Position numbers and translations under genes: made by a program. A DNA stretch of 64,000 nt, taken from positions 806,001 to 870,000 of the forward strand of contig NZ_CP021023.1 of the NCBI RefSeq assembly GCF_002117005.1, given 5' to 3'. The notes under the pieces are model-generated. The model was not told the DNA's origin, did no database searches, and saw only the letters and a program-made list of their open reading frames with translations. Origin of the DNA: Sedimentisphaera salicampi (GTDB taxonomy: Bacteria; Planctomycetota; Phycisphaerae; Sedimentisphaerales; Sedimentisphaeraceae). Shown here in pieces: positions 3,124 through 44,181 of the stretch. Positions within the stretch are counted from its first letter, which is position 1. Each line of letters starts with the position of its first letter.

Positions 3124-5886
3124 TTACTGCTGCACCCAAAATTCAACAGAGAAAGGGGATAATTCACGTGAGAACTGCCGCCCTTTTCTGATACCCACAT
3201 ATTTTCCGATGTTGTTTCTGGTTTGCGAAGTATAGCAATAGCCTTTAAACTCAGCATCAACCCCCATATCAATATTGTATTCAAAAGGAGTATCAGATGA
3301 GCGATTAGTTAAAGCAATAACCAATTTGCTCTCAGGCGTTTTCCACGCCAGAATTCGCTGATTTTTTCGGGTCTGCTCTTCATCTACACGACAAACAACT
3401 GAATCCCACGGCATATATTTCAAGAATCCTGCAACAGCATTCCAGTGATACCAATTGTACTGCCAGTGTTTCTTTTTGATGTCAACATAACGTGTAAAAT
3501 CGTTATCACTTGAAGGCCGCCAAAAACCAAGGCCAAACCGCTCACCTATAAGAGTGTCAGTAGGTTTGAGGGCATGCAGCCAGAACCATGCAGGAGATTC
3601 ATTAAAAGCAAACCAGTTCATAATAGATTGAGCAGTATTTACAAATCTCCACTGAGAACCTGCGCCATCAAGATATTCGAATTCTACATTCAGCACAGGC
3701 CTTCCTTCTGCATCTTTCTTGAATCGGGAATCGCTGTATCTGATTTGTTCATCAGAATTTTTCCCGACACGATGCCAAGACCACCCATCCACGTATTCAA
3801 GAGCCTTGGAATCATCTCGAATAAGTATCGAGCCTTTGCCGTACTGGCCAGCCTGACTGTCTGCATGTATGAAAAGCTCAGGGAATTCATTCTTAACAAT
3901 CGGCGCGACTGCTCGAAACGTATCGCAGTACTCCTGCCCGCTATACTCACAGCAGCCGTAGCCTGCCTCACCAACGGTGGGTTCATTCTGCAAAGAAAAC
4001 ATTTTGACAGGGGCGATATTTTCCTGAACATATCTTAAATCTTTAACAATTGAATTGCCAAATTCAGTCAAAAATGTTTTATCAAATTTTTTCAGAGAAC
4101 CGCCAACAAACCTATTGTTAGATTTGAAATACGGAGCTGGAGACCAATACTCAAAGTTAAAGCCTTCAATACCGGATTCATCTATCATTTCTGCCAGTTC
4201 GCTGTTCTGAGAGCTCCAATTCTGCTCAAACTGCTTTCGCTCATCATCCAGCCCTGTATAAAAGAGCCCCATAGGAAGCCTCATATAACGGAATCCATGG
4301 CCGAATCCGAGCAGTTCATTATAGAATCTCTTTCGTTCCGATTCGGTTAAATCCCCCGGAATGCCCTTGCTGCGGTTGATTCCGCCCCTCCTTTCGGCTT
4401 CCGGCTGAATCTCCACACCAAGCCCCCAAACGGTTTGCTTCTCTTGACCTAACCGAACTGTGTATGAGCCGGACTCTGGATCTTGCAGTGATTGGGATTT
4501 CGGGTCTAACCCCTGCATTTCAGCGTACTCATATTTGATCGAATCGGCAATAACCAAACCATCTGCTTCGTTAGAAAGCTCCACATACCCTGAACGGCCT
4601 GCCCGCCCCTTTTCAAAGAAATGTGTACCCAGCAGTTTCCATTCACCGCCCGGCTTTCGCTGGTCAACAGTGTAGGTTGTTTGGCCGGATCTATGATGAA
4701 CTGTATATTTCGCATTTGACGCACGGTCAGGGTCGCCATCGGGAAGCCAGTAATAAACATTATACCAGCCCGAAACCAGAAAGCCTTGAAAATCAGGCTG
4801 CCATGGCCGCCATGCTATTATTTCCGGCTCATCCGACGGTTTCAAAGTACGGTAGAAACGGGTATGCCCCGCCCTTGAATAACGGTAGAATCTTCCGTAA
4901 TAATTGTCTGCATAAGTCGATTTCGGCCACCAGCCTTTAACCCTGCTTGAATTAATTCCCCACCCGGATGTTACAATAATATCCGGGTCAACCAAGCGTA
5001 TTGTATCAAAATTTAACGAGTAGCCGGAACTTAGCGAATTTTTCCCTGTGATTTTTAATTTTACAATCTGCCCGCCCGGGGAATCAACTTCCACCACGCC
5101 CGCTGTAAACATTGAATACTGCAAATCAGGATTAAACGAATCGATCTTACTGCCTAAATTTTTATTATCAAAAGACACTTTGTATTCGGCACCAGCCGAG
5201 CTTAATACGTTTCGTATTAGAATCACATAAAAACCATCTTTTTCTGCCTGAACAGGATACTTCACGACTGCCCCCGGGCTGTCAGATTTTATTCGATAAT
5301 AGAAGCCATCTTGTGAATTAACATCGCTCACATACTGGATATCTGAAGAGTCAGAAACCTCAAGCGGCTGAATCTTTTTTAGAGACAGTTCAGAGAAGGA
5401 GAGATTATAACTTTCGGAATCTTTATTTTTACCTACAGCCTTAAACCTGAATTTTTTGGAGCCGGCTGTCTGAAAACGATGCACACCCAAATTGACAGTT
5501 CTGAAGCTGTATTCTCCGCAGAGATCACCCTGATCGATCTTCAGGCCTTCACCAGCCAAACTTAATTCATCATTATCACTGCCCACAAGCAGCTCATAGA
5601 TGCCGTTATCAGGTTGATTGCGCTGCCTGACTTGCAGGGCATAAAATCCTGCTTCAGGGACATCAACAGCAAATTCAACGAACTGTTTTTTTTCGCTTAG
5701 ATATGCATGCTGATAACTGCTCCCTTGCGAAGATGCTTGTGCTGAATCTTTGCGAACTTCCAAAGAGGCACCCTTGGAAACCTCCGCATCAAGCTCTGTA
5801 AATCTATAAGTAAACACCTTCTCAGCGGAAAGAGCTGAGCTGTTTGACAGCAGTACTGCTGCCAAAACGGCAACCAGCTTCGCCAT
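3124..5886 (-). CDS. Secreted GH30-like glycoside hydrolase with tandem beta-sandwich modules and golvesin-like domain
   Basis: A predicted exported clan GH-A enzyme, closest in my reading to GH30 (xylanases, glucuronoxylanases, 1,6-galactanases). The ATG at 5884-5886 gives a clean signal peptide with GCGAG upstream; an in-frame ATG at 5910 has a poorer site. Order from the chosen start (920 aa): signal peptide about 1-21, two carbohydrate-binding-like beta-sandwich modules (about 25-170 and 190-298), a golvesin C-terminal-like domain (about 300-455, with motifs WYNVYYWLPDG, TVDQR, VIADSIK), then the catalytic barrel and side sandwich (about 485-920). The likely acid/base is Glu635 in SLQNEP. 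The likely nucleophile is Glu735, since a second Glu two residues on is Gln in the paralogue. It is a close paralogue of the C-terminal half of the product at 14949-20711. It is the last gene of its operon, 36 bp after the 852-aa gene. The exact substrate is not determined. Confidence 0.82.
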   Translation of the reverse strand: MAKLVAVLAAVLLSNSSALSAEKVFTYRFTELDAEVSKGASLEVRKDSAQASSQGSSYQHAYLSEKKQFVEFAVDVPEAGFYALQVRQRNQPDNGIYELLVGSDNDELSLAGEGLKIDQGDLCGEYSFRTVNLGVHRFQTAGSKKFRFKAVGKNKDSESYNLSFSELSLKKIQPLEVSDSSDIQYVSDVNSQDGFYYRIKSDSPGAVVKYPVQAEKDGFYVILIRNVLSSAGAEYKVSFDNKNLGSKIDSFNPDLQYSMFTAGVVEVDSPGGQIVKLKITGKNSLSSGYSLNFDTIRLVDPDIIVTSGWGINSSRVKGWWPKSTYADNYYGRFYRYSRAGHTRFYRTLKPSDEPEIIAWRPWQPDFQGFLVSGWYNVYYWLPDGDPDRASNAKYTVHHRSGQTTYTVDQRKPGGEWKLLGTHFFEKGRAGRSGYVELSNEADGLVIADSIKYEYAEMQGLDPKSQSLQDPESGSYTVRLGQEKQTVWGLGVEIQPEAERRGGINRSKGIPGDLTESERKRFYNELLGFGHGFRYMRLPMGLFYTGLDDERKQFEQNWSSQNSELAEMIDESGIEGFNFEYWSPAPYFKSNNRFVGGSLKKFDKTFLTEFGNSIVKDLRYVQENIAPVKMFSLQNEPTVGEAGYGCCEYSGQEYCDTFRAVAPIVKNEFPELFIHADSQAGQYGKGSILIRDDSKALEYVDGWSWHRVGKNSDEQIRYSDSRFKKDAEGRPVLNVEFEYLDGAGSQWRFVNTAQSIMNWFAFNESPAWFWLHALKPTDTLIGERFGLGFWRPSSDNDFTRYVDIKKKHWQYNWYHWNAVAGFLKYMPWDSVVCRVDEEQTRKNQRILAWKTPESKLVIALTNRSSDTPFEYNIDMGVDAEFKGYCYTSQTRNNIGKYVGIRKGRQFSRELSPFSVEFWVQQ

Positions 5887-5922
5887 TATAATCTCGCTTT
5901 TTATCATCATAATAAAACTGCA

Positions 5923-8481
5923 TCATTCATATATAAAGTAGGCTGTGGCAACTGTGTCAGTATCGGCTGTTGTGCGAACCCAATAGGCATTGAAACCTTC
6001 AGGGAAACGGTGCTTAACAGTACAGTCTGCGGGAATTTGAATCTTACGGTAAGTTTTCCAAGTGCCCTGTCCGTCGATATCCACTTCGATGCATACCTCT
6101 ACAGGTTCATCGTTTTTATGAGAAAGCTCCAGAGTTTTATGCTCGTAACCTGTCATCAAATACGGATCTGACGGCTCCCCAGCCTTAACATGGGTATCCT
6201 TCCAAGGGCCTCCCCTGCCGACAGGTTTGCCAAACTCCCAGAGATCATCGACTGCACCAACCCAAAGGGCAACTTTGCCATCCTCGGAACGAATAATATG
6301 TTTATTGCTCTCTGGAGCATTGTCAGCAATGCCGGAAAGTATTAAAAGGCCTCGCCAGCTGCAGTAATCTGCGATACGGCGATTGTGTGTTGCCACTGGA
6401 CGTATTTTGGAAAAACCGCCAGCATTTTTCGCCGGCAGTTCATAGAACGTGCCGTGAGCATTGAACAGGTCTCTTTCAGTTACAACTTCTCGGGAAATAC
6501 GCTCTAAACCAACCGGTCCGGTTTTATCAAAAGACTTATCACCTTTCGGAAGACGAAAACGTTTTCCCTTTTCGTCAACATATATCAGAGAAGCCTGATC
6601 TACGCTTATAACATCTCTAGGAACTTCCATATTTTCCTGCATAAAGGCATGGGCTTCTTCATCATCAACTCTGCACAAGATCATAGAACCTTTGCTATCC
6701 AGCATCATCTCATAATAGCCGGCGTTCTTAACTTTTCCGTTTTCTCTGATTTTAGCTGAAAATTGAAGCGTTTTTTTGTTTTCTCCGCGTGCTCGTATAT
6801 AACCGCCGCAGAGAGCTGAACTATCAGCTTTAGCTATACCATCAAACATTTTGTCCGGCTGGGTTGTGCGTTTTTCATGGCTGCTGTACTGGAAAAATAC
6901 TGTTACGCGTTCACAGTCCTTGTTGGTATGTACTCGAATCCATTCGCCCTTGTCTGAAGCTGAAAAAGCTGTCCATTTATAGCCGCCAGAATCTACAGTT
7001 ACAGTTTTAAGGTGCTCCCAGCTGCCGTCACCAAGCTTATCCACCTCAAATATAAACTCAACGGGTTTATCCTGCTGATGAACCAAATGCACGCTGCGAT
7101 TTTCAAAACCGGCAAAAAGGTACGGATCCGAAGCCTGCTGCTTTTTAACAGAATCATTCAGCCACACTGCCCCTCGGCCAATCGGTTTACCAAAACTGTC
7201 CAGCTGGTCGCTGCTTATAAACCTCAGGTTAGACTGAGACTGGCCGGGTGAGGCCATATCCCCTTTAGCGTTGAGAGTATTTAAGAACTCGCTTCTGGCA
7301 GTAACATTGCATCCCAAAACAACTTTCTCCCGCCACTGGGCAAAATCACCAAGCACCATCAAATAAGTTGACATCGGCCTGATTCCGCTGCGATCCTCAC
7401 GAGAAAAGCTCTTTGGAAACTGCCAAAACATCCCGTGCATATTCATAAGAAGCTCTTCTTCACCGATATCTCTAATTCTTGGCCACTCGGTATTCCATCC
7501 GTGCGCACCATCATAAGTATGAGAAGCTTTCGGTAAGCGGTAAAAGCTCCATTGCCCATTATCAAGCAGAGCGAGAATCAAAGAACGCTGATCCCAGCCA
7601 ATTGACCAAAGCTGGTCGGAACTGTTAGAATTGCCGTAGATTCCTCCTGGGCCTGTTACCTCAGTGAACTGATCTCTGCGGACAAGCTGCCAGTCCCCCT
7701 GCCCGTACCACTCTGCCAAAGCACCTGAGGGGATTGTAGGGTCGGTTTTTGCCCTAGGGCCTTTTTGTCCGTTATTCGCATAAACGAGCCGGTCTTGAGC
7801 TAAATAAAGTCCTTTTCCGTGATAGCCGGGCAAATCACTCTTAATCCCTTCTGGCGGAGCACCCGAATTGCCGTCTCTAATCAAACAATTAACTTCAAGA
7901 GTATTAACGTTGACTTCATAAAGCCCTTCTTCCATAGTTGCATAATATACTTTCGATGAAGGCTCAAACAAATGCCGAGCAATGCCTGTATGCCGGCCCA
8001 TCATCTTAGAATAAGGAATAACTCTAACATTACGCTCATCATCAACAACATAAGGACCGATGAACAGCTGGTTCGACTCACGATGAATCATACGAGCGGC
8101 GGGCGTGCCTCCAATGCTTTCAGGATGGGCAGTAAGATTTAAATCGCCATCAATTTCATAAAGATTTTCTCCGTCCGAACCTTTTGGGCTATGAGGGGCG
8201 TAAGTAACAACCCAGAGCCGATTAGCCCAAGGCACAACTGCACCAGTGCCGCATTCTCTGTTATCATTGAAATATGCAAGATGCGGATAAACACCCGACC
8301 AGCTTGAACGAGGTTCTGACCCGGCCACAGCGCTGCCTGCAGAAAAGAGAACAGAGCTAATCAGGAAAAGAAACATCAATGATTGAGGTAATTGTTTCTT
8401 TCTCGAGAATAACGAGATGACTTTTTGAGCAGTACTGAGAGCCTTAATTTTAGACAATGAGCAACCGGATAAAAGTTCCAC
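5923..8481 (-). CDS. Secreted protein of unknown function with internal ~180-residue duplication
   Basis: I do not recognise this 852-aa protein. It starts at GTG (8479-8481) with GAAAGGA just upstream and no better ATG. A long basic n-region precedes a hydrophobic stretch at about 34-53 with a plausible cleavage site, so export is expected. The first 340 residues contain repeated short strand-like units with Trp/Tyr (LWVVTY, LFIGPYV, LWSIGW), compatible with a beta-propeller. Residues about 349-532 and 676-852 are copies of one module. Both contain HG(M/T)F(W/Y)xxP, then IRPxxT, then FGKPxGRGxxW, then SDPYLxxGxE and a C-terminal sandwich-like part. No catalytic motif is evident. It has its own promoter at 8537-8564 and precedes the GH30-like gene by 36 bp, so a role in the same polysaccharide is likely. 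Confidence 0.7.
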   Translation of the reverse strand: MELLSGCSLSKIKALSTAQKVISLFSRKKQLPQSLMFLFLISSVLFSAGSAVAGSEPRSSWSGVYPHLAYFNDNRECGTGAVVPWANRLWVVTYAPHSPKGSDGENLYEIDGDLNLTAHPESIGGTPAARMIHRESNQLFIGPYVVDDERNVRVIPYSKMMGRHTGIARHLFEPSSKVYYATMEEGLYEVNVNTLEVNCLIRDGNSGAPPEGIKSDLPGYHGKGLYLAQDRLVYANNGQKGPRAKTDPTIPSGALAEWYGQGDWQLVRRDQFTEVTGPGGIYGNSNSSDQLWSIGWDQRSLILALLDNGQWSFYRLPKASHTYDGAHGWNTEWPRIRDIGEEELLMNMHGMFWQFPKSFSREDRSGIRPMSTYLMVLGDFAQWREKVVLGCNVTARSEFLNTLNAKGDMASPGQSQSNLRFISSDQLDSFGKPIGRGAVWLNDSVKKQQASDPYLFAGFENRSVHLVHQQDKPVEFIFEVDKLGDGSWEHLKTVTVDSGGYKWTAFSASDKGEWIRVHTNKDCERVTVFFQYSSHEKRTTQPDKMFDGIAKADSSALCGGYIRARGENKKTLQFSAKIRENGKVKNAGYYEMMLDSKGSMILCRVDDEEAHAFMQENMEVPRDVISVDQASLIYVDEKGKRFRLPKGDKSFDKTGPVGLERISREVVTERDLFNAHGTFYELPAKNAGGFSKIRPVATHNRRIADYCSWRGLLILSGIADNAPESNKHIIRSEDGKVALWVGAVDDLWEFGKPVGRGGPWKDTHVKAGEPSDPYLMTGYEHKTLELSHKNDEPVEVCIEVDIDGQGTWKTYRKIQIPADCTVKHRFPEGFNAYWVRTTADTDTVATAYFIYE

Positions 8482-8580: not shown

Positions 8581-10269
8581 TCAATCACCAAATTTATTTT
8601 TCAATAAACGAAAGTTTATGATAATTACAGCCAATATAAGTGCAGATGCAGCAATTAACAAAACTTTCCTTCCCTGCTCATTGAGAACAGCAATAATCAG
8701 AATTACCAATCCAGTTGAAAGAACATATGCAGAAATCAGAAAATGCCTCAACCTCCCCGCCTTAGCGAGAGAGGGCACTTTATCTGCGGAATCCCTTATT
8801 TCTATAACTCTGGAGCTATTTATTGATTCATTGCTGCCTGTAAATTCAAACAGCAGCAGCACAGAAACAGGTAATATTATTCCAATAATCCAAATTTCCA
8901 GCAAAAGCGGGTTTTCGATAAACCCCGATTTGGATTCAATAAAAGGCTTTAATAAAATCATCCCCGCAATACTTACCGAAAATGTTGCAATGACGGAGCT
9001 GAAGCCAATCTTCCGAGAAAACAAACTCCAGATTGAAGGAAGAACTATAGGCGTTACCAACATTCCTGTCAGATGCAGGACAACATTTTCTGCGCCTCCT
9101 AAAGAAGGAATCAAAACTGCAATAGATATAACAATTAAGCCCAGCAATAACGAAACAAAACGCCCAAACAACAACATCGATTTTTCAGTAATTCGAAAGC
9201 GGGCAATTTTGCCGTAAATCTCACGAGAGAATGCACCTGCAAAAACATTTATTTGTGAGTTAACCGTACTTGCTGTGGCGGCAAACATAGAAGCCGCTAT
9301 GAGCCCCAGCATCCCAGAAGGCAATACAGACTGACAGGCCATGATAAAGGCTTTTTCTGAATTTGCGTTTGAATCTATAATCCTATACATCATAGGAGGA
9401 AGCATCCAAAATATCGGACTCACCAAGAAGAGAAGACCAAAGAGCAACGCCGCCTTTTTAGCGTCTTGTTTTGATGAAACGCACAAAAAACGCTGCACAA
9501 ATGCCCACTGCCCTCCAATTTTAAAGAAATGAATAATGACCCATCCAACAAGAAACAGCGGAGGGAACTCCCTGCTGTATGGTATGAAAAACCTTTCGGG
9601 TGCATTGTCAATAAACGATTTAATTCCTCCAACCTCATTTAACAGCAATGGGATTACAATTAGTACTGAGGCGGTCAAAACAACAAATTGAATCACATCA
9701 GCCATTAAAACTGCCCAAAGCCCGCCAGCAGCAGCAACAAGCACCATTGAGACCCCGCAAATCACAATCGCCCAGTAAACTGACAGAGTTTGGCTGTTGC
9801 TGCCAGCTAAGAAGTGCCCTTCCGGGACTACAATCAACGCTGAAAGAATAACAGATACCGCATACAAAGCAATTCCAACATCAATCATACGGAAAATCGT
9901 TGATATCCAAGAATAAAAGTGTACTGCTTTCCGTCCAAAGCGATTCTCTATATATTCTGCAGGCGTAACTGCTCCTGATACCTTCCAGCGAGCAGCGATT
10001 GTGAAAGCCACCAACCATGCTGAAATCCCAATCATCATCAGTATGCTGACACCAACCAGCCCCTGGCGAAAGGCAATGCCGCCCCATACAACAAAAGTTC
10101 CTGAAGTGAACATAGCCATATGTCCTGAAATCCCCGCTATCCACCAAGGGGAACTTTCGCCTGCAGCAAACATATCTTTAGTATTTTTGATTTGGGAAGA
10201 ATATAATATACCAAGCGTTAAAAGGCCTGCTATATAACCTAAGAAGATGACAATGTCGAATTCAGTCAT
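8581..10269 (-). CDS. Sodium:solute symporter (SSS/SLC5 family), probably for a sugar
   Basis: A 562-aa inner-membrane secondary transporter with about 13-14 predicted hydrophobic helices and no signal peptide. The family imports sugars, amino acids or other solutes with sodium. Diagnostic stretches include an N-terminal LGYIAGLLTLG helix, the GRK loop after helix 3, and the core segment around residues 327-352 (MFAATASTVNSQIN followed by FAGAFSREI), which in this family contributes to the Na2 site. It lies 35 bp after the XylR-like regulator and before the secreted unknown and GH30-like genes, so import of a released sugar or oligosaccharide is the natural role. The SD is weak. Substrate is inferred only from context. 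Confidence 0.85.
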   Translation of the reverse strand: MTEFDIVIFLGYIAGLLTLGILYSSQIKNTKDMFAAGESSPWWIAGISGHMAMFTSGTFVVWGGIAFRQGLVGVSILMMIGISAWLVAFTIAARWKVSGAVTPAEYIENRFGRKAVHFYSWISTIFRMIDVGIALYAVSVILSALIVVPEGHFLAGSNSQTLSVYWAIVICGVSMVLVAAAGGLWAVLMADVIQFVVLTASVLIVIPLLLNEVGGIKSFIDNAPERFFIPYSREFPPLFLVGWVIIHFFKIGGQWAFVQRFLCVSSKQDAKKAALLFGLLFLVSPIFWMLPPMMYRIIDSNANSEKAFIMACQSVLPSGMLGLIAASMFAATASTVNSQINVFAGAFSREIYGKIARFRITEKSMLLFGRFVSLLLGLIVISIAVLIPSLGGAENVVLHLTGMLVTPIVLPSIWSLFSRKIGFSSVIATFSVSIAGMILLKPFIESKSGFIENPLLLEIWIIGIILPVSVLLLFEFTGSNESINSSRVIEIRDSADKVPSLAKAGRLRHFLISAYVLSTGLVILIIAVLNEQGRKVLLIAASALILAVIIINFRLLKNKFGD

Positions 10270-10304: not shown

Positions 10305-11465
10305 CTAGTCAACTGCGTTGCTCTTTGAGTATCTTTTACGAAACTCATCTGGAGTTATCCCCACGGCATTTTTGAAAAAACGTGAAAAATGCTGTGGATT
10401 GGTAAACTCAAACTTTGAAGCTATCAAATTTACTGAGAGCCTTGAATTTAGCAGCTTATCCTTTGCCATACCTATCCTGAGGCGGGTTATCTCTCCGGCA
10501 ACAGAACGATTTATTGCAGCATCAAATCTCTTTTCCAAAGCGCTTCGAGAAAAACATATATGGTCGGTTACATCTGATACTGAAATTTTACGCTGATAGT
10601 TGCTTCTTATAAAAATCAAAGCTTCTCTGACAATAGGGTCCTCTACTGCCAACACATCAGTTGACTGACGTGTTACAATTCTTACAGGTTCAATATTCAT
10701 CACACGGGCAGTTTCTTCCCCTGAGATAATCCTGTCTAAATGCTCGAGGGTACGATAACCAGCACCTTCAAAATCAAGTTCAATGCTTGAAAGTGCAGGA
10801 CGGGAAAGATGGCATATCAAGCTGTCGTTATCTACTCCCAAAACAGAGACCTCTTCAGGAACACTTACAGAAACAAGTTTGCAGGCATCCAATACAATCC
10901 TTGCGATATCGTCATTACATACCAGCAAAGCAATAGGCTTAGGCAGGGAATATATCCAGTCGGCAAGTTCTTTACGAGCCTGATTTATTTTTGTACTGCT
11001 GGATAAATTAAGGTTGTATGAATACAGCTCTGCCCCATTCTGTTCTATGATTCTATTAAAAGCGGTCTTTCGCTCATTGGCCCAAGTGATATTTCCACAA
11101 CTAATATAGCCGAAACGTTTGTGTCCAAGAGCAAATAAGTAATCACCTGCCATTTGCGCAATAGCCTCAGAATCGGCTTTCAAAGCAGCCACATCACTGC
11201 CTGCGGTATTATCAAGAGACATAACAACCTTGGGTTTATTAAAAGAGAGGATATTCTTTATGTCATAGTAGCCAAAAACAATCATCGCATCCGGATTTTG
11301 CTGGTTACACCACTTGGCAGGAAAAAGACCGCTATCGCAAACGTATTTGGGCGGGGGCAACAAAACGTCCCAAGATGGATTGAATCTAAGATAAGACTCC
11401 ACACCGGAAAGAAAACTTCTTCCGGGGCCTCGGGAGGTATCTACTAAAATCAGCAACTGTTTCAT
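10305..11465 (-). CDS. XylR-like transcriptional regulator (LacI-type sugar-binding domain plus AraC HTH)
   Basis: 386 aa, close to the length of E. coli XylR (about 390). The N-terminal 270 residues resemble a periplasmic-binding/LacI-type ligand domain (MKQLLILVDTSRGPGRSFL, LGHKRFGYISC, ALLVCNDDIA, VSVLGVDND, LSSIELDFEGAG). Residues about 280-383 form an AraC-family double helix-turn-helix, with the C-terminal signature NPQHFSRFFKNAVGITPDEFRKRY. It is expected to sense a sugar and activate or repress the genes it heads. The symporter starts 35 bp downstream. A promoter with a palindrome between -35 and -10 precedes it, suggesting autoregulation. Xylose as ligand is only suggested by family resemblance and the GH120/GH3 content elsewhere. 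Confidence 0.85.
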   Translation of the reverse strand: MKQLLILVDTSRGPGRSFLSGVESYLRFNPSWDVLLPPPKYVCDSGLFPAKWCNQQNPDAMIVFGYYDIKNILSFNKPKVVMSLDNTAGSDVAALKADSEAIAQMAGDYLFALGHKRFGYISCGNITWANERKTAFNRIIEQNGAELYSYNLNLSSSTKINQARKELADWIYSLPKPIALLVCNDDIARIVLDACKLVSVSVPEEVSVLGVDNDSLICHLSRPALSSIELDFEGAGYRTLEHLDRIISGEETARVMNIEPVRIVTRQSTDVLAVEDPIVREALIFIRSNYQRKISVSDVTDHICFSRSALEKRFDAAINRSVAGEITRLRIGMAKDKLLNSRLSVNLIASKFEFTNPQHFSRFFKNAVGITPDEFRKRYSKSNAVD

Positions 11466-11700: not shown

Positions 11701-14883
<3,183 letters not shown>

Positions 14884-14948: not shown

Positions 14949-17900
14949 TCACTGCTGCACCCAAAATTCAATGGAAAACGGCGGAACTTCACACGAAATC
15001 TGCTCTCCGCTGCTGCTGCCAATGAAGTCCCCATCGTTATTGCGAGTTTGTGAAGTGTATCTATAGCCTTTGAAAACTTCATTTACACCAACATCAACAT
15101 TAAAGACAAACGGGGCGTCTGGAGATCGGTTAGTTACCGCTAATACTAATTTCCCATCAGGCGTCTTCCATGCCAATATACGATTATCCATACGGACGCT
15201 GTCTTCATCAACATTATATATTACCGAGTCCCAAGGCATATACTTAAGAAAGCCGGCAATTGCGTTCCAATGATACCAATTGTACTGCCAGTGCCCCTTT
15301 TCTATGCTCGCATATTTGCTGAAGTCGCTGTCGCTTGAAGGACGCCAAAATCCCAAACCAAACCTTTCTCCAAGCAACTCAGTAGGCTTGAGAGCATGCA
15401 GCCAAAACCATGTTGGAGATTCAATAAACGAAAACCAATTCATTATAGATTGAGCAGTATTGACTGTCCTCCACGCAGAACCTGCTCCGAGATTATACTG
15501 CCATTCGCTATTAAAAACGGGCTTGCCTTCCGTATCCATATTGAAATGTGATTCTGCATACCTGATTTTTTCATCGGAGTTTTTGCCCTGCCAATGCCAA
15601 GACCAGCCATCTACATATTGCAAAGCAGAAGGGTCATCTCTCAATAATTCACTGCCATGGCCGTATTGGCCGGCCTCGCTGTCGGCATGAATAAAAAGCT
15701 CGGGAAAAGAAGATTTTATAATCGGCGCTACAACCTTAAAAGTATCGTAATACTGCTGATCGGTGTATTCGCAGCAGCCATAGCCGGCACCGCTAACGCT
15801 GGGCTCATTCTGCAGAGAAAACATTTTGACAGGCGCAATATTTTCCTGGACATACTGCAAATCATCCACAATTGAATTCCCAAAATCAGTTAGAAAGGCC
15901 TCATCAAATTGTTTCAAAGAACCGCCTATGAACTTATTATTCGATTTAAAATACGGAGCAGGAGACCAGTACTCAAAGTTAAAGCCTTCAATGCCGGATT
16001 CTTCTATCATTTCAGCCATTTCCCTGTTTTGCGAGCTCCAGCTCTGCTCAAACTGCTTTTGCTCATCATTCAGCCCTGTATAAAAGAGCCCCATTGGAAG
16101 ACGCATATAACGGAATCCATGGCCGAATCCGAGCAGCTCATCATAAAAGCGCTGGCGCTCGCTTTCAGTTAAATCAGAAGGAATGCCTCGGGCTCTGTTA
16201 GAATCAGAACCTCTCAAATCTTCAGGCTGAATCTCCACGCCAAGCCCCCAAACGGTTTGCTTGCTCTGGTTGTGCTGAACAATGTATGTACCTGTTTCTG
16301 CGTCTTGCAGCGGCGGAGTCTGAGGAGGCGGAGCGTCTTGAGAGAGCGCATATTCAAATTTGATTGAATCGGCAATCACAATCCCATCAGCATCGTTAGA
16401 AAGCTCCACGTATCCTGAACGTCCGGCACGCCCCTGCTCGAAGAAATGAGTACCTAAAAGTTTCCATTCACCGCCCGGCTGTCGCTGGTCGACCAAATAT
16501 GTAGTTTCCCCGCCTTTATGATATACAGTGTAAGGTGCATTTGAAGCACGGTCAGGTCTGCCGTCCGGAAGCCAGTAATAAACATTATACCATCCCGGCA
16601 CAAGAAAGCCTGTAAAATCAGGTCCCCATGGCTTCCAAGCAAATTTTTCAATAGTATCGCAGGGCTCAAGAGGAGGCCAGCGAAACCGGCAGTATCCAGG
16701 CGTAGAATAACTATACCATCTTCCATAGTGGTTCTGCGCGAATTGAGATGTTGGCCACCAGCCAGCAGTTCTTTCTCCATTGATTCCCCAGCCTGCTGTA
16801 ACGATAATATCAGGGCTTACCAACTGAATATTATCTATACCAATTTTATAACCGCTGCTGTTGTCATTTTTCCCAATCGTCCTGAATTCAAATATTTTTG
16901 TGCCAGAGCTGACAACATCCAAAACCCCCATGATTTCCATAGAATAAGATTCTTCAGGGCTGTACTGATCTACAATTGCTCCCAACGGTTCATCATCTAT
17001 ATAAAGCTGATACTGCCCACCGTCTTGCCCATTGACATTTCTAACAGTAACAACTTGATTTCCAGTTTCAGTTATATCAACAGGGACTCGCAGAATCTGG
17101 CTCGACATCTCAGAATTAACCTGATAATGATAGCCATCTGCCGAGTTCGTGCTGCTTTCATTACTCAAGGCATTTGAGGGCAAAGCCGAAACAGGCTTTA
17201 CCTCTTTTAACGCTATATCAATTAAAGACAAGTTATAATCGTCTGAATCTGGATTTTTACCGATAACTTTAAATTTGAATTTCTTAACCCCTTCTGAAGC
17301 AAAGGTATAAAGTCCCAAATTTGCTTTTTCAACCATTGCTTCGGTGATAATGTCCCCTTGGTCGAATGTGAGATTTTTTCCGACAGGGTTATAATCAAAG
17401 CCATTTTCGCTTATGTAAAGCTGATACATACCGCTGTCTGGTTCTTTTCTATTAACCACCTGAATTGAGTAAGTGCCCGGATTCGGCAAGTAAACATCAA
17501 ACTCAACAAAATCGTTTACAGCCTGAAGGTCTGCATGAACATACTGATGCTGCGGGAGATACCATTTCCAAGACTCACTTTCATTTGAAACTTCCCCTCC
17601 AGAAGAAACAGCAACCGGCAAATCGTTACAATTGTATGTTTGAATATTAGGCACATAATAATCAGGCTCATCAGAAAAACAAAAATCAAACGGATATAAA
17701 CCGCAATTAAACCAGCTTGAAGCCAACACTGCAAGATCTGCAAGGCCCACCTTACAGTCCGGCTGATTGCCTTCATCGCCTCCGCCCGCAACATCAAACT
17801 GCAAATCCAAATCCTGCAGATTGCTGCAAACGGGAGTTTCGCTGACCTCATAACAGAGATCAGCAATTTCAGCCTCATCCTTTGCGTAATTATAGATGCG

Positions 17901-20711
17901 CAAATCATCCATAACTCCATTGAATACGCCGCTGATTGTCCCGTCATCCTGCAAAATACTGCCCCCGATTACAAGCTGGGCATCAGTTTTATTGATCCTG
18001 AATCCGGGCTCACTGTCAACTTTGGCTCCATTATAATAAAGCTTTCCGCCATCTTCATCTACTGTAAATGCAAGATGTGTCCATTCGCCAACGAGAGGGG
18101 GATCATAAGACATATTTTTAGTACCAACGCCTGCCGAGCTGATGCTCATAGAATCGCCTGTTGGCGGTATCGTCCAGAACCAGTCTGCACCGCTGGTCTG
18201 CCAGTCTGAGCCTTCGCGTTTAGAGATTATGCCTGTCCATCTGCCGGGAACGCCTTCCCACTTTACCCATAAAGACACAGTGATTTCATCGCTTAATTCC
18301 GCCGGCGAATCGGAGCCGGCAAGTGCTGCTGCATCAGAATATTGGCCAAAATCAAGGCCTTCGCTGGTCTTAGCAGGATTAGCCCCCGGAACAAATGCAT
18401 CAACATTCAGAGATCCCCCCTGGGAGATCGCATCCCTATTTTCCCCGCTGCTGTCAATGTATTTACCGAAGCTGCCGGGGATATATTCAGAGCTTACATA
18501 TTTAGACATATCCAATGTCCAATGCGCAACTTTTCTTTTAACAGCCAAGCTCACCACATCCGAATACACCATACCGCCGTCGTGGGATACTTGGCAGTAA
18601 TAATAACCTTCATCGCTAAGCTGAACATTCTCAATATAAAAGTCTGGGTTAATGCTGGGAGTGCCTTTAGGCTGGTCAGTGGACGAATCAATCTCGCCGC
18701 TTTCTGAGAAGTACCATTGGCAAACCGGATTAGACAAATTATCTATACTTACTGAAAACTCAGCGTCCTCGCCCCAATCGACTATATGATCGTTCGGCTG
18801 AGATTTAATTATATCCGATTCGTTCATTACACTGAGCGAGACATTGTCCACCCAATGATCCCGCTGCAGAGATTCAATTTGAAGTATTAAGCTGCTTCCC
18901 TCATCAATATTTGAGTCTGAAAATGAATCAGTGTCTATAAGAAACTCAAAGGTCTGCCAGGCTAACCAGTCTCCTACTTCTGTATCGCCTGAGTGAGTGT
19001 AGGTCATGGGGATTTCCGACGACCAAAGATGCGACCCATCATCCTGAAGCAAACTGGCCTTCATAACCGCATCTGTTGCAGTAGCAAGCCATCGCACCAA
19101 GCAGGCGTTAAACCTGAGGCGGAAAATTTCTCCTGAGGACCAAGGATGCTGAATTATCTGACGAATTGTTCCGGTTGTGCTTCCCGCTGGAAGGCGGAGC
19201 ACCTGATTACCCTCAGGCCCCGGAACAGACTTTCTTGTTTCAACAAATTTTGATTCCAGCTTAACTCTCTTCTGCGCAGCTTCAAGAGAATCCCAGTTAG
19301 GCACATCAATCAGCAAATTGTCGGCATCAGGCCTGTGCGGCTCTTCAAAATCACCATTAGAAACCAATTCATCCTCTTCGGAGATTTCATCCTGCGGATT
19401 ATCTTTAAACATCTGCCAAAAGAAAATCCAAGGATCAATATAATAAGCTTGGCCTTCTTCAATAACTCGAAATTCAAAGTGTGTATGAGGGCGGTTTCCG
19501 CTATAGACACCTCCTGAGAGCGCATAGTTTTCGCCTTTCGTTATAGTTTCGTGTTCAGGCATAAGCATTTCATCAAGATGGTGCGCCTGGAGCCACCACG
19601 TGCTCCCATTAGCCCAATGGCGAACGCCACGCCAGCGATTATTAATATCGCCGGCCTCCAGAGAATCAAAGAGGTAATGGTCATCAAAACCTATCGGGGC
19701 ATAAAGCGGTGTTTCCGGAGGCATATTAATATCCAGTCCTTCATGCGTATATGTTGGTTTTTGAGGGCCGATCCACACATTCCTTCCATACCAGCAGTCC
19801 CGAATATCCGGGCTGTCGCGTGTCTCGGGATACCACCAATGAATTTCTTCCGGGCAGATGCGGTCATTTAGATCATTAACCACAAGGCGGGCTTTCCGTT
19901 TCGGACGACATTTCGTCCTGTGAACCATCCAGCCTCCGTCATCCTCAAAGATATCGCTCACGGCATCCAGCCAGATGCGCATTCCATTAACCACCCACGG
20001 CTCGTAAAAACTTTCCTGATCAGCAACAATCCGCTCAAACCGGTAATTCTCTCCGTCTATATCAAACTCGGCAGAAAATGAGTAGTTTGGACTTTCAGTA
20101 ATATGAGCTTCTGTTGACAGCAATCGAATTCTGCGAACCTGACCGCTGCGTAATGTAAAATGAAATTCATCACCAATATTCAATTCAACTGGTGTGATAG
20201 TATTTTTGGCTGTTCTCTGAACCACGCGCTGAGCTGCAGGGACAAATTTAACAGCATCAGCCACGATTTCGGCATTTTGTTTTTTAGTGCCGTCCAGTTC
20301 GACATAAGAATCCCCATCCAGCTGATATGTTCCCATAAAATGCCATCCGGGATTTTCCTTTTGAATGAAGGGGTGCGTAGTTATCCCGCCGGTATGCTTA
20401 ACATTCCAATAAGCAAAAACATCTTTGTCTTCATAATCCCGCCAGTACAAATACACATCAAAACGGCCATCAATATTCGGGCTGTAGCGGGCATAACTGG
20501 GAGAAGGGTTTGATCCATCGCTCACAGCAACACTTCCGCTCCATGAATTCGGATCATTGAGCATTGTAAAGCCGGTCTGTGAAAATTTATCAGAAGCAGT
20601 ATCTATCACTATCTGGTTTGCAGAACTTGCCTCATCGCCAAGTACAGCATTGCCATTCAGCAAAGATAAGGCAATCACCGCAAACAGAAATATTTTAAAC
20701 GAATGTGGCAT
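14949..20711 (-). CDS. Giant secreted fusion: golvesin-like, M23 peptidase-like, CBM, Ig, LamG, dockerin-like, and GH30-like enzyme
   Basis: 1920 aa from the ATG at 20709-20711, which has AAGGGAG six bases upstream; an in-frame ATG 17 codons earlier lacks a good site. Order: signal peptide (1-25); golvesin-like domain (about 30-160); M23/LytM-like domain (about 300-420) with HEGLD (His323, Asp327), His377 and HTH (His409, His411), the full zinc/catalytic set; CBM4-like module (about 450-630); Ig-like (about 635-725); LamG (about 728-955); dockerin-like repeat (about 968-1015); two beta-sandwich modules (about 1020-1300); second golvesin-like domain (about 1301-1455); GH30-like catalytic part (about 1485-1920) with acid/base Glu1636 in SLQNEP and nucleophile Glu1736 in NSEW. 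Residues about 450-1015 match the 703-aa neighbour and about 1020-1920 match the 920-aa GH30-like protein. It therefore reads as a three-way fusion. No frameshift interrupts it. GH2 follows by 68 bp. Confidence 0.85.
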   Translation of the reverse strand: MPHSFKIFLFAVIALSLLNGNAVLGDEASSANQIVIDTASDKFSQTGFTMLNDPNSWSGSVAVSDGSNPSPSYARYSPNIDGRFDVYLYWRDYEDKDVFAYWNVKHTGGITTHPFIQKENPGWHFMGTYQLDGDSYVELDGTKKQNAEIVADAVKFVPAAQRVVQRTAKNTITPVELNIGDEFHFTLRSGQVRRIRLLSTEAHITESPNYSFSAEFDIDGENYRFERIVADQESFYEPWVVNGMRIWLDAVSDIFEDDGGWMVHRTKCRPKRKARLVVNDLNDRICPEEIHWWYPETRDSPDIRDCWYGRNVWIGPQKPTYTHEGLDINMPPETPLYAPIGFDDHYLFDSLEAGDINNRWRGVRHWANGSTWWLQAHHLDEMLMPEHETITKGENYALSGGVYSGNRPHTHFEFRVIEEGQAYYIDPWIFFWQMFKDNPQDEISEEDELVSNGDFEEPHRPDADNLLIDVPNWDSLEAAQKRVKLESKFVETRKSVPGPEGNQVLRLPAGSTTGTIRQIIQHPWSSGEIFRLRFNACLVRWLATATDAVMKASLLQDDGSHLWSSEIPMTYTHSGDTEVGDWLAWQTFEFLIDTDSFSDSNIDEGSSLILQIESLQRDHWVDNVSLSVMNESDIIKSQPNDHIVDWGEDAEFSVSIDNLSNPVCQWYFSESGEIDSSTDQPKGTPSINPDFYIENVQLSDEGYYYCQVSHDGGMVYSDVVSLAVKRKVAHWTLDMSKYVSSEYIPGSFGKYIDSSGENRDAISQGGSLNVDAFVPGANPAKTSEGLDFGQYSDAAALAGSDSPAELSDEITVSLWVKWEGVPGRWTGIISKREGSDWQTSGADWFWTIPPTGDSMSISSAGVGTKNMSYDPPLVGEWTHLAFTVDEDGGKLYYNGAKVDSEPGFRINKTDAQLVIGGSILQDDGTISGVFNGVMDDLRIYNYAKDEAEIADLCYEVSETPVCSNLQDLDLQFDVAGGGDEGNQPDCKVGLADLAVLASSWFNCGLYPFDFCFSDEPDYYVPNIQTYNCNDLPVAVSSGGEVSNESESWKWYLPQHQYVHADLQAVNDFVEFDVYLPNPGTYSIQVVNRKEPDSGMYQLYISENGFDYNPVGKNLTFDQGDIITEAMVEKANLGLYTFASEGVKKFKFKVIGKNPDSDDYNLSLIDIALKEVKPVSALPSNALSNESSTNSADGYHYQVNSEMSSQILRVPVDITETGNQVVTVRNVNGQDGGQYQLYIDDEPLGAIVDQYSPEESYSMEIMGVLDVVSSGTKIFEFRTIGKNDNSSGYKIGIDNIQLVSPDIIVTAGWGINGERTAGWWPTSQFAQNHYGRWYSYSTPGYCRFRWPPLEPCDTIEKFAWKPWGPDFTGFLVPGWYNVYYWLPDGRPDRASNAPYTVYHKGGETTYLVDQRQPGGEWKLLGTHFFEQGRAGRSGYVELSNDADGIVIADSIKFEYALSQDAPPPQTPPLQDAETGTYIVQHNQSKQTVWGLGVEIQPEDLRGSDSNRARGIPSDLTESERQRFYDELLGFGHGFRYMRLPMGLFYTGLNDEQKQFEQSWSSQNREMAEMIEESGIEGFNFEYWSPAPYFKSNNKFIGGSLKQFDEAFLTDFGNSIVDDLQYVQENIAPVKMFSLQNEPSVSGAGYGCCEYTDQQYYDTFKVVAPIIKSSFPELFIHADSEAGQYGHGSELLRDDPSALQYVDGWSWHWQGKNSDEKIRYAESHFNMDTEGKPVFNSEWQYNLGAGSAWRTVNTAQSIMNWFSFIESPTWFWLHALKPTELLGERFGLGFWRPSSDSDFSKYASIEKGHWQYNWYHWNAIAGFLKYMPWDSVIYNVDEDSVRMDNRILAWKTPDGKLVLAVTNRSPDAPFVFNVDVGVNEVFKGYRYTSQTRNNDGDFIGSSSGEQISCEVPPFSIEFWVQQ

Positions 20712-20783
20712 AAATTTCTCCCTTAAGAGAATCTTTTCTGAAATTTTCATTAAAGCTGCCAAAAATTAAGCAGCAATATGACG

Positions 20784-34297: not shown

Positions 34298-36505
34298 TTA
34301 CCAAAAAATATTGACGCTTTGAATTTCTTCAAAAGCAGGCGATTTGAAAAATAAGGTTTTGCTCTCTTTATGCCATGAAAAATCAGCAAACTTTTTATTA
34401 TCTATAAGCATTCTTGCCGGCTTTTCAGGCAAACGAATTCGGGAAACAATTTCTACATCTCTTGGAGCAGACAGTTTTAATTGAATGCCATCGTCAAGTT
34501 TTTCCCAGCTCTCAATCCTCGCTGCAGAGGCTATTGGCTGGGCTTTATTCTTCTTAAGTTTTTTCAAATCCATGAGCCAAATGCGCTGGCCGGGCCTTAC
34601 TGATACTTTTTTCTTCACAGGCAGGTGGCTTTCTAACAGATCGACAAACAATCCCTCGAGCTCAAGCGGCTTATCACTTATTGAATCTTCTAAGCATGCC
34701 GCTATTACATAAGGCCCGCGATTAAGCTGGAGGTAATTATTTCGATTAAACTGCATGCCCGCTGCATTAGCTGCCTTTATCAAAATTGAGCGATATTCAT
34801 CAGCAGCTGATTCAGAGCGGCTGTAGTAGGCGGGGTGCTTACGCGCCAAGAAAACCCTTCCCTCTCCAAAGCCGTAATTCCCTGCTTCTGCATCAGGCAT
34901 TATGCCCAACAGTTCCAGTAAATGCTTGGACGGTGAGGCATAGTTATTATCGCCCTTATTCCACCATTCAGAGACATTATTGAACGGGTCTTCATCAGCT
35001 CCCACATAAACCAACACCCCGCCCTGGGCAGTCCACTCGGCCAAGGCCTGATTAACAGCAGGTGTCTGCGGCTTCATAAATTCGTAGCTGAGAACAAGAA
35101 CCTTATAGTCCTTGAGGTAATTGGCAAACCTTACTGTATTATCCAGCTGAACGGTCTGAACAGGTATTCCGTGTTTTAGAAGCGGAAGCGTCAAACCGTA
35201 AAAACCAGAGAAATCCTCAATTTCTGATTCGCTGGCCCTTTTGGGGTTGTCCTTATTCTCTGCTGCCTCACGGAAAACGGGCTCTGCTCTTTGGAACATA
35301 GCCGAATCAGCAATCAAAACTCCGATCCCATGAGCTGCATTTACCCATTCAATCTCTTCCTGACGCATATCTCGAAGCTGGTTAAAGACTGTGCAGAGCG
35401 TGGCTGCATAATCATCAGGTATCGGTTTGGCGTTTTCTGAGCCTCTGGGATAACTTCTTTTAAAGACTCTATGCGGCCAAGGACATATTTCATAACGCCA
35501 TATATGGGGCTGGAGCAGCGAAGCAATCAATGTTGCTTTATAATTATATTTGTAATCGTCCCAGCCATAGCCTGAATTATCCTCGATTGGATCGTGAAGA
35601 AACCACAAACGCCGATCAGTATTGCGAACTAGTTCCTGCATAACTCCATATTCCAGAAAAGCAGTTTCAAAAGTGCGTTCTGCCCGTTTGCCCTCGTAAA
35701 CATTCGGAGTTCTGGAAGTACCCGTCCAGACCTGAGCAATACAGCCGTCTATAACGTCCGAATCGATCAGAGAAGACTGGGGAGAAACAATATTCCAATG
35801 GGTATAGTTAATGAGGCTGTGAGTTGGAACATAGATCCTCAATTCTCTATTGTGTTTTCTAAGGGCGTAATCCTTGCAGGCCTCAGCTACACGCCGAATG
35901 GTTCGTGTGTAAAGGTAATATTTCAGCTGACTTGCCTTGTATTGAGCATTGATGGACGAGTCCGGGCGGGTAAAAGGTTCATCGTAATAAAGCTTCCATT
36001 CCTTCTGAAACTTTTCAGAAAACCCTGTATAAGCCCAAAATTCCGGCTCCTCCAGGTGTATAGCTAAAACTCCTGCATCAATTGCAGCTTTAAGCTTTTC
36101 GGTAATATAGTCTGCAAACTCGATTGAGGGGACAATGTAAGGATTCATATGTCCGTGGAGCTTTTGCGAACCATCAGCATGAACTTGAGAGAGAGACATA
36201 ATTGAGCTGCCCTCAAAATCCCTGAAGTCCGAGTACTGCCCCCACGCTATTCCCGTCATCAGGTGCGGGAGATAATTCTTCTGCTTCCAAGACTGCAAAT
36301 CATCAATGAGATCGGATCGGGAAGCACCATAAACCATTGCAAAATCATTTCGGAAATCGCATTCAGGAGAATACGGCCTGCTGTCCTGAAATCCCGTCAA
36401 CTCAAGGCTTCGGTCTGTTACAAGCCTCACATCGTTATCCGCATAGCTGTATAAGGAGCAGACCGATAAAACCATGCCTGCAATCAATATTGTACAGTTC
36501 TTCAT
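34298..36505 (-). CDS. Putative secreted GH-A-like protein with GATase-like domain
   Basis: 735 aa from the ATG at 36503-36505; a GTG three codons earlier overlaps the SD AAAAGGTG. Signal peptide about 1-22. Residues about 55-400 resemble a TIM barrel with AIHLEEPEFWAYTGF (possible catalytic Glu) and WFLHDPIEDN. Residues about 415-570 resemble the class I glutamine amidotransferase-like/trimerisation domain of GH42-type enzymes (YKVLVLSYEFMKP, LAEWTAQGGVLVYVG). A small C-terminal sandwich follows. I cannot assign a family. It heads the GH92/FucP/ROK gene set, so a role on mannose-containing glycan is plausible. A TATAAT lies upstream at 36538-36543. Confidence 0.65.
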   Translation of the reverse strand: MKNCTILIAGMVLSVCSLYSYADNDVRLVTDRSLELTGFQDSRPYSPECDFRNDFAMVYGASRSDLIDDLQSWKQKNYLPHLMTGIAWGQYSDFRDFEGSSIMSLSQVHADGSQKLHGHMNPYIVPSIEFADYITEKLKAAIDAGVLAIHLEEPEFWAYTGFSEKFQKEWKLYYDEPFTRPDSSINAQYKASQLKYYLYTRTIRRVAEACKDYALRKHNRELRIYVPTHSLINYTHWNIVSPQSSLIDSDVIDGCIAQVWTGTSRTPNVYEGKRAERTFETAFLEYGVMQELVRNTDRRLWFLHDPIEDNSGYGWDDYKYNYKATLIASLLQPHIWRYEICPWPHRVFKRSYPRGSENAKPIPDDYAATLCTVFNQLRDMRQEEIEWVNAAHGIGVLIADSAMFQRAEPVFREAAENKDNPKRASESEIEDFSGFYGLTLPLLKHGIPVQTVQLDNTVRFANYLKDYKVLVLSYEFMKPQTPAVNQALAEWTAQGGVLVYVGADEDPFNNVSEWWNKGDNNYASPSKHLLELLGIMPDAEAGNYGFGEGRVFLARKHPAYYSRSESAADEYRSILIKAANAAGMQFNRNNYLQLNRGPYVIAACLEDSISDKPLELEGLFVDLLESHLPVKKKVSVRPGQRIWLMDLKKLKKNKAQPIASAARIESWEKLDDGIQLKLSAPRDVEIVSRIRLPEKPARMLIDNKKFADFSWHKESKTLFFKSPAFEEIQSVNIFW

Positions 36506-36537
36506 CAAATTCACCTTTTAGCGAGTTATGTATATAC

Positions 36538-40196: not shown

Positions 40197-41313
40197 TTAT
40201 TTTTGCCAGCCTTCAGAGAAATAAGGAAAATCTCTGAGATCAACGCTTTGATTTTGGTCAAAATCTGCAGAAATCCCTTCGCCTTTTTCAAGCCAGCTTT
40301 TTCCAAACTGAAAGAGATCAGTTTCGTCCACCCGGCAGTCTTTATTCAAATCACCCTTAAGATACGGTGAACAGGGGCCATCATTCATAAGAGATCTAAT
40401 TTCTTCGTGGGAAAGAGGTCTGCCGTATATGACCACATCGTCAAGTATTCCAAAGAAAGCTTCCTCAACCGCAGCTTCTGCGGGTTTGCCAATTCGAATC
40501 GGCACAGAGGTATTCGCTGGCGAATGAACGATATCAGTTCGTTCTGCAGCAAGCTCGCCATTTATATAAAGCCGACCTTCGTTTTCATTCAGTGTACAGG
40601 CGACATGCACCCACTCACCCGGCGAATAGCCGTTTGCTGCCATAATGGTTTGATGATTGGATTCACTGCCAACGCGGAACCATATCTCACCGGTCTCACG
40701 CAATTTAACATTCCAGCCGGTGCCGCTGTTATCGTTAGGCAATTTATCAACGGGAACCTGAAGCTGCAGTCTTCTGGATTTCATCCAGAAGGCAGCTGTG
40801 AGCCATTCGGATGAGCCTGCTTGATTGCCAAAGTCTATGCTGTCATCATCGCCGTCAAAGCGTATTGCACTAATACCTCTTTTGGCTTCGCCCTCAGAAG
40901 TAAATTCGGGACTGCCGAACTTTTCGTAAGAATGATTATCTGCAAAGCGGTTTTCAGTGTCTAATTCAAGCGGCCAGTATGCTGCTTTTGTGTTAAAATA
41001 CAATTGATCTATCATTTCATCGGGTGTTACAACCCTGACGTTATCATCAAAATCCTGAATAGCATTATGCACCTCCTCAAGACCATAACTCCATGCGTGG
41101 ACTATAACAAAACTATAACCTTCCTCACTGGTAGAATCTGCCGCTAACTGATTGATACTGTTTGCCAATTGTTCACCCGTTCGGCTGAGACCATCATACT
41201 GAGGCGAATCCCATAAAGTAAATCTGGTGGTTACCATAGGCTTGCCGTCAAACCACAGCATATCACCGTCATAGCGGGCATAATCCCCTGCAACATCTAC
41301 ATAGAACAAACCT
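40197..41313 (-). repeat. 1.1-kb near-identical block, copy in the second GxGYxYP gene
   Basis: Positions 40197-41313 align without gaps to 43065-44181 (offset 2868). By eye I count about 13 differences, most near the stop codon. Roughly 790 bp in the middle show none. Just upstream in the genes similarity drops abruptly. Confidence 0.85.
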
Positions 41314-43061: not shown

Positions 43062-43064
43062 TTC

Positions 43065-44181
43065 TTACTTCCCCCAGCCTTCAGAGAAATAAGGAAAATC
43101 CCTGAGGTCAACGCTTTGATTTTGGTCAAAATCTGCAGAAATCCCTTCGCCTTTTTCAAGCCAGCTTTCCCCAAACTGAAAGAGATCAGTTTCATCCACC
43201 CGGCAGTCTTTATTCAAATCACCCTTAAGATACGGAGAACATGGGCCATCATTCATAAGAGATCTAATTTCTTCGTGGGAAAGAGGTCTGCCGTATATGA
43301 CCACATCGTCAAGTATTCCAAAGAAAGCTTCCTCAACCGCAGCTTCTGCGGGTTTGCCAATTCGAATCGGCACAGAGGTATTCGCTGGCGAATGAACGAT
43401 ATCAGTTCGTTCTGCAGCAAGCTCGCCATTTATATAAAGCCGACCTTCGTTTTCATTCAGTGTACAGGCGACATGCACCCACTCACCCGGCGAATAGCCG
43501 TTTGCTGCCATAATGGTTTGATGATTGGATTCACTGCCAACGCGGAACCATATCTCACCGGTCTCACGCAATTTAACATTCCAGCCGGTGCCGCTGTTAT
43601 CGTTAGGCAATTTATCAACGGGAACCTGAAGCTGCAGTCTTCTGGATTTCATCCAGAAGGCAGCTGTGAGCCATTCGGATGAGCCTGCTTGATTGCCAAA
43701 GTCTATGCTGTCATCATCGCCGTCAAAGCGTATTGCACTAATACCTCTTTTGGCTTCGCCCTCAGAAGTAAATTCGGGACTGCCGAACTTTTCGTAAGAA
43801 TGATTATCTGCAAAGCGGTTTTCAGTGTCTAATTCAAGCGGCCAGTATGCTGCTTTTGTGTTAAAATACAATTGATCTATCATTTCATCGGGTGTTACAA
43901 CCCTGACGTTATCATCAAAATCCTGAATAGCATTATGCACCTCCTCAAGACCATAACTCCATGCGTGGACTATAACAAAACTATAACCTTCCTCACTGGT
44001 AGAATCTGCCGCTAACTGATTGATACTGTTTGCCAATTGTTCACCCGTTCGGCTAAGACCATCATACTGAGGTGAATCCCATAAAGTAAATCTGGTGGTT
44101 ACCATAGGCTTGCCGTCAAACCACAGCATATCACCGTCATAGCGGGCATAATCCCCTGCAACATCTACATAGAACAAACCT
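43065..44181 (-). repeat. 1.1-kb near-identical block, copy in the first GxGYxYP gene
   Basis: Partner of 40197-41313. It encodes the end of the GxGYxYP domain, the LamG domain and the dockerin-like repeats. The sharp edge at 44181 points to gene conversion rather than simple recent duplication. Confidence 0.85.

Follow-up and report, generated by a model that had tools for sequence, protein, structure and literature searches.

A duplicated beta-propeller and jelly-roll protein of Sedimentisphaera salicampi and its relatives at SusC/SusD loci: a candidate family of glycan-cleaving enzymes

The stretch of DNA analysed here (the window, 64,000 nucleotides of Sedimentisphaera salicampi) encodes on its minus strand, at positions 5923 to 8481, an 852-residue protein that we interpret, with a probability of roughly 60%, as a secreted enzyme that cleaves glycans and belongs to a family not yet described. 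The protein carries an internal repeat, and its family has two forms, spreads over several phyla, is linked to SusC/SusD genes in Bacteroidota and keeps a set of conserved residues. We favour an enzyme because of this linkage, the glycoside hydrolase genes that flank family members, the invariant residues and the identity retained across phyla. The broader picture, to which we give about even odds, is that glycan-cleaving enzymes built on a beta-propeller form a new and widespread family, in which long versions are exported and short ones cytosolic, and which supplies the sole evident enzyme of many minimal SusC/SusD loci. Its long form would have arisen by duplication of part of the propeller together with a jelly-roll, and it would be present in about 10% of the genomes sampled from the window's phylum and in half of those from one Bacteroidota family.

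The open reading frame has exactly the coordinates given in the initial annotation, and its strand is minus. It starts with GTG, with AAAGGA 6 nt upstream of the start codon, and residues 1-53 (8323..8481, minus strand), which include the hydrophobic sequence FLFLISSVLFSAGSAVAG, resemble a signal peptide by heuristic criteria rather than by SignalP; a heuristic sequence check found no lipobox adjoining the hydrophobic stretch. As the initial annotation had noticed, the neighbours are a sodium:solute symporter gene upstream (8581..10269, minus; SSF, PF00474 by Pfam) and a gene for a GH30-like enzyme with a golvesin/xanthan-lyase-type domain next downstream (3124..5910, minus). Since the three genes share a strand, the gaps on the two sides of the target are 99 nt (symporter) and 12 nt (GH30-like gene), and neither gap has a terminator-like site on the minus strand, the target is likely to be co-transcribed with both, in agreement with the earlier proposal.

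Beyond the symporter gene, also on the minus strand, lie genes for a regulator that joins a periplasmic-binding-protein domain with an AraC-type transcriptional domain (Peripla_BP_3 and HTH_18; 10305..11465), a LacZ-type GH2 beta-galactosidase (11701..14880; NF052611, above cut-off) and a second, multidomain GH30-like protein of 1937 residues (14949..20762), the catalytic region of which is 74% identical to that of the 928-residue neighbour of the target. The 1937-residue protein joins a weak M23-peptidase-like segment with Ig, laminin-G-like, golvesin-type and GH30-like domains. The GH30-like proteins show weak similarity to a solved xylanase, 1nof (E 4.2e-09 over about 80 residues), and have a domain resembling that of a Paenibacillus xanthan lyase (E 1.1e-18); no label more precise than "GH30-like" is warranted for these neighbours.

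No convincing match in Pfam, NCBIfam or the PDB sequences came from the sensitive profile search recommended in the initial annotation, whose description of an uncharacterised secreted protein agrees with this result and with the signal-peptide-like N-terminus. The best Pfam hit of the target had an E value of 0.087 and was spurious. Among 26 members compared with Pfam-A and NCBIfam, none scored above a curated cut-off; the best E value was 3.4e-4 (F5_F8_type_C, in 2 of the 26), and no Pfam family was matched in more than three of them. Against PDB sequences, phmmer returned nothing up to E 1 and a profile search nothing up to E 10. Word searches of open-access full texts gave no description that could be tied to the family, which has no name to search by.

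The duplication of residues 349-532 and 676-852, first seen by inspection, is real: the two segments align with a BLOSUM62 score of 220, as compared to a mean of 30 (sd 5, maximum 59) for 1000 shuffles. The repeat is also wider than first noted, as hhalign, using profiles built from 26 aligned relatives, paired residues 294-533 with 625-852 at E 1.5e-44 and 31% identity (pairwise score 254). Copy 1 (residues 294-533; 6883..7602, minus) comprises the last three blades of the first propeller and jelly-roll 1, and copy 2 (residues 625-852; 5926..6609, minus) comprises three blades and jelly-roll 2. The repeat claimed by the initial annotation stands, but the unit is probably not a self-standing module: it combines three propeller blades with a jelly-roll. 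The two motifs that it flagged were found, FGKPxGRGxxW at residues 430-440 and 750-760 and SDPYLxxGxE at 451-460 and 771-780. Both lie at the junction of propeller and jelly-roll, are conserved mainly at Gly, Pro, Trp and Ser positions, and are probably structural. A further motif in copy 2, RxxREVxTER (661-670), is conserved among long forms.

The long form is predicted to consist of a propeller, a jelly-roll, a partial propeller and a second jelly-roll. Both halves were modelled, and structure prediction of the parts, also recommended at the outset, gave propeller and jelly-roll folds. The full AlphaFold2 model (m16b23ddcfad9) was built from 8 aligned sequences, with a mean pLDDT of 69.8 and a pTM of 0.75, and several stretches of the first propeller are of low confidence. 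In this model the N-terminal part suspected of being propeller-like forms a beta-propeller (residues 68-430), which VIA-align matched to known structures with Z up to 14.1 (rmsd 4.7 A over 266 residues). The fold matches are tied at Z 12-14 among many propellers, including WD40 domains, two-component sensors, the lectins PLL2, PLL5 and PHL, the B12-binding proteins BtuG and BtuK and virginiamycin B lyase. Residues 62-432 (7186..8298, minus) are thus probably a seven-bladed propeller without a named relative.

Jelly-roll 1 (residues 434-533; 6883..7182, minus) is predicted to follow, with FGKPIGRGAVW and SDPYLFAGFE at its entrance, and according to the model and the family comparison a linker blade, present in long forms only, occupies residues 537-620 (6622..6873, minus). 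The second half was modelled better on its own (15 sequences, pLDDT 86.0, pTM 0.84). Its last 100 residues form jelly-roll 2 (residues 753-852; 5926..6225, minus; model m3dd93c4f0555), with VIA-align Z up to 8.9, a score that unrelated jelly-rolls reach likewise, and its first 220 residues form four blade-like strand groups, a region that the VIA-align search barely probed. In the members examined, the jelly-roll-bearing repeat unit always follows a propeller, and the jelly-roll is well modelled.

We compared these folds with those of known carbohydrate-active proteins. The C-terminal 100 residues share the fold of CBM6, CBM22 and CBM32 (Z 6.8-7.8, rmsd about 3 A, 92-102 residues), although Z values in this range are common to unrelated jelly-rolls, and protease domains and phage proteins reach up to 8.9. 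Unlike those binding modules, the jelly-rolls of the target have no Pfam CBM match and, in every member examined, are attached to propeller blades. A relation to the GH43/GH32 enzymes, which have a five-bladed propeller and a beta-sandwich, was considered because Foldseek matched such enzymes weakly, both with the full model (8hhv, E 6.4e-07) and with the second half alone; it is unconvincing, as the TM-scores are about 0.1-0.26 and Pfam gave no match. A GH43-like protein of the same genome (L002, PF04616) matches residues 278-435 at E 2.5e-4 only, which is too weak to establish such a relation, and two-propeller sensors (BT4663, from Foldseek) were likewise rejected at TM 0.2 and rmsd 30 A.

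Polysaccharide lyases with a propeller fold are known from families PL24, PL25 and PL42, which include ulvan lyases and, as the L-rhamnose-alpha-1,4-D-glucuronate lyase of the group, FoRham1 (excerpts of PMC10951650 and PMC8377490). The target family has in common with them a predicted beta-propeller, conserved His, Arg and Tyr residues and a proposed link to glycans, and differs from them in its jelly-rolls and its second partial propeller. Neither of the PDB searches, by phmmer or by profile, linked it to a solved member of these lyase families. Their His-His-Asp/Tyr/Arg site, with the spacing DxH-x19-H-x44-Y-x15-R derived from residue numbers in the excerpts of the same two papers, occurs in none of 74 members of the target family, and in three of the 74 if the Asp is left out. 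Known polysaccharide-lyase propellers are absent among the 50 listed VIA-align matches of the first propeller, an absence that excludes nothing.

The conserved residues were determined from 74 members (55 long and 19 short forms), after six fragments had been dropped from a set of 80. E76, Y94, R130, R163, E184, H221, K223, N237, D297, E332, R335 and D379 are identical in 74 of 74 (as printed, after rounding), and H133 is kept in 99%. At least 13 polar residues are therefore invariant or nearly so, and in both long and short forms all of them lie within the first propeller, which makes an enzyme likelier than a binding family. Jelly-roll 1 is conserved mainly at Gly, Trp, Ser, Pro, Asp and Arg, and copy 2 of the long forms has its own conserved set (R661, R664, E665, E669, R670, H699 and D705).

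In the window's phylum, sequence searches matched the family in 38 of 392 genomes. The phylum to which an Opitutia bacterium (G394) belongs had matches in 46 of 240 genomes, and for a Cytophagaceae bacterium (G395) the counts were 111 of 222 in its family and 6 of 395 in its class. Named records with members come from Phycisphaerae, Pirellulales, Omnitrophota, Kiritimatiellaeota, Opitutia and Cytophagaceae. Long forms have about 800-870 residues, and most share 40-60% identity with the window protein, which shares about 40-59% identity over nearly its full length with full-length members in other phyla; short forms have about 460-515 residues and consist of one module, without the second half. 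Crude gene calling returned no target in 5 of 39 stretches from the window's phylum (L056, L066, L070, L075 and L076) and in 4 of 20 from the G394 phylum (L142, L145, L150 and L158). Two long forms (L060, 8144-11098; L063, 7601-10546) have an insertion of ~150 residues inside the first jelly-roll, and a member of 1416 residues (L059, 2118-6368) has weak C-terminal dockerin-type and PEP-CTERM matches, which suggests that it is sorted to the envelope.

In a midpoint-rooted tree of 93 modules, the copy 1 modules of all 37 sampled long forms group in one clade and their copy 2 modules in a second, each with 100/100 support, and the copy 2 clade is nested among short-form modules. The tree omitted L060 and L063 on account of their insertion, and ten of the long forms of the second set were drawn at random. 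Because the copies form two separate clades and copy 2 is nested in this way, the tree is consistent with a single ancient duplication in an ancestor that resembled the short forms.

The link to carbohydrate uptake comes mainly from Bacteroidota-type loci, of which 28 were picked from the matches; they are mostly from one bacterial family and are not independent. The gene classes of SusC and SusD were checked with Pfam. Both genes lie upstream of the family gene in 22 of the 28 loci, and up- or downstream of it in 24; SusD is the immediate neighbour upstream in 17. The upstream run includes an ECF sigma or FecR gene in 16. Two of the loci are truncated at contig ends (L124 and L086), one has SusC with an uncalled SusD (L112), and two have no pair (L115 and L127). 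Five further genomes of the class-wide sample have the SusC/SusD pair as well, upstream in four and downstream in one. In ten genomes, SusD was the next upstream gene in 8 of 10 cases, as compared to a background of about 0.9% per gene (569 SusD genes, assuming 1.1 kb per gene). In a plasmid of Spirosoma oryzicola, a TonB-dependent receptor gene and a RagB/SusD gene precede a family gene annotated as "hypothetical protein".

The order ECF sigma, FecR, SusC, SusD and then the family gene is that of SusC/SusD-type polysaccharide utilisation loci, and in many loci of our sample the family gene is the sole further gene. In the window, which belongs to another phylum, symporter and regulator genes flank the target instead. 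Short and long forms occur together in 6 of the 28 loci, and sulfatase genes are found in the neighbouring run of 5. Glycoside hydrolase genes adjoin the family gene in individual loci: GH29 fucosidase genes on both sides, with an esterase-like gene (L152), GH2 and GH43+GDSL genes (L098) and a GH44-like gene (L095). An FAD-dependent oxidoreductase gene (PF12831) was observed in the run of four Bacteroidota-type loci (L117, L122, L123 and L129). The neighbourhood was uninformative as to the substrate: 42 loci with a called target, the window included, gave 97 operon-like neighbours (Pfam) with no family in more than four. Neighbour genes vary widely and no common substrate emerges from them.

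The site of action was assessed from the N-termini. A simple hydrophobicity test found a signal in 33 of 35 Bacteroidota-type members (2 unscored), and a loose lipobox pattern matched at most 8 of the 35; most of them look like signal peptidase I substrates. Among nine short forms outside the Bacteroidota type, two have a signal (one probably because of an over-long start), five have none and two were unscored. Exported and cytosolic versions thus apparently both exist, and together with the few possible lipoboxes this favours an enzyme, since it is unlike surface binding lipoproteins and makes a pure surface binding role less likely.

The main competitor of an enzyme, which we regard as considerably less probable, is a non-catalytic protein that binds glycans at the cell surface or in the periplasm as part of the SusC/SusD complex, with the jelly-rolls as its binding modules. 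The position of the family gene right behind SusD would suit such a protein, and a glycan-binding or sensing role would equally yield the SusC/SusD linkage; the resemblance of the jelly-rolls to CBM6, CBM22 and CBM32 and the presence of propeller lectins among the tied fold matches point the same way. However, the invariant charged residues of the propeller and the high identity across phyla argue against it, as do the apparent lack of a lipobox in most members, the short forms without a signal peptide outside Bacteroidota and the occurrence of the family in phyla where no SusC/SusD genes adjoin it. Of the "new carbohydrate-binding or lyase family" imagined in the initial annotation, the tie to carbohydrates draws its strongest support from the SusC/SusD genes upstream of relatives, while the binding module loses ground to an enzyme.

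An enzyme or binder for non-glycans, such as peptides or cofactors, is unlikely in our estimate. SusC/SusD-like pairs can import other nutrients, one family gene has an M14 carboxypeptidase gene directly upstream (L085), and B12-binding BtuG and BtuK are among the tied propellers. On the other hand, GH29, GH2, GH43, GH30-like and sulfatase genes adjoin the family gene in several unrelated loci, and we know of no peptide analogue with such a SusC/SusD linkage. It is still more improbable that the second half is a decayed, functionless copy and that only the first propeller and its jelly-roll matter. Short forms do live without this half, but in the 37 sampled long forms copy 2 is a single clade, and it has kept its own conserved residues, so it is probably under selection.

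If the protein is a glycan-cleaving enzyme, its catalytic site would lie in the first propeller, at the invariant Arg, His, Lys, Glu, Asp, Tyr and Asn residues. The jelly-rolls may hold or orient the sugar chain or stabilise the fold, and the second half of the long forms, as a partial copy, may reshape or extend the binding cleft. The substrate would be a poly- or oligosaccharide that is cut after import, or before import where the protein is lipid-anchored; cleavage would take place in the periplasm for most Bacteroidota members and in the cytosol for some short forms. In the window, the target would work alongside the GH30-like and LacZ-type enzymes, and the products may feed the symporter. 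As to the chemistry, propeller lyases use an Arg as neutraliser and a His as base, and by analogy with them only, we guess at a slight preference for beta-elimination over hydrolysis. Unsaturated-uronyl hydrolases of GH88 or GH105 as neighbours would favour a lyase; they are not among the 25 neighbour families listed. If the family is enzymatic, one assay campaign would reveal what hypothetical proteins of many genomes do and which substrate belongs to the minimal SusC/SusD loci, which are illegible to present annotation, and the duplication of part of a propeller would be an unusual route to extending a propeller enzyme.

Elsewhere in the window, the minus strand from 31958 to 63927 is rich in genes for carbohydrate enzymes (GH92, GH116, a GH120-like protein with CBM6, and GH3), with MFS and sugar transporter genes among them. 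Two putative GxGYxYP glycoside hydrolases are encoded in tandem at 40197-45908 (minus), and two proteins encoded inside the carbohydrate clusters, of 738 residues (34298-36514) and 882 residues (58421-61069), have no Pfam match at E 1e-6.
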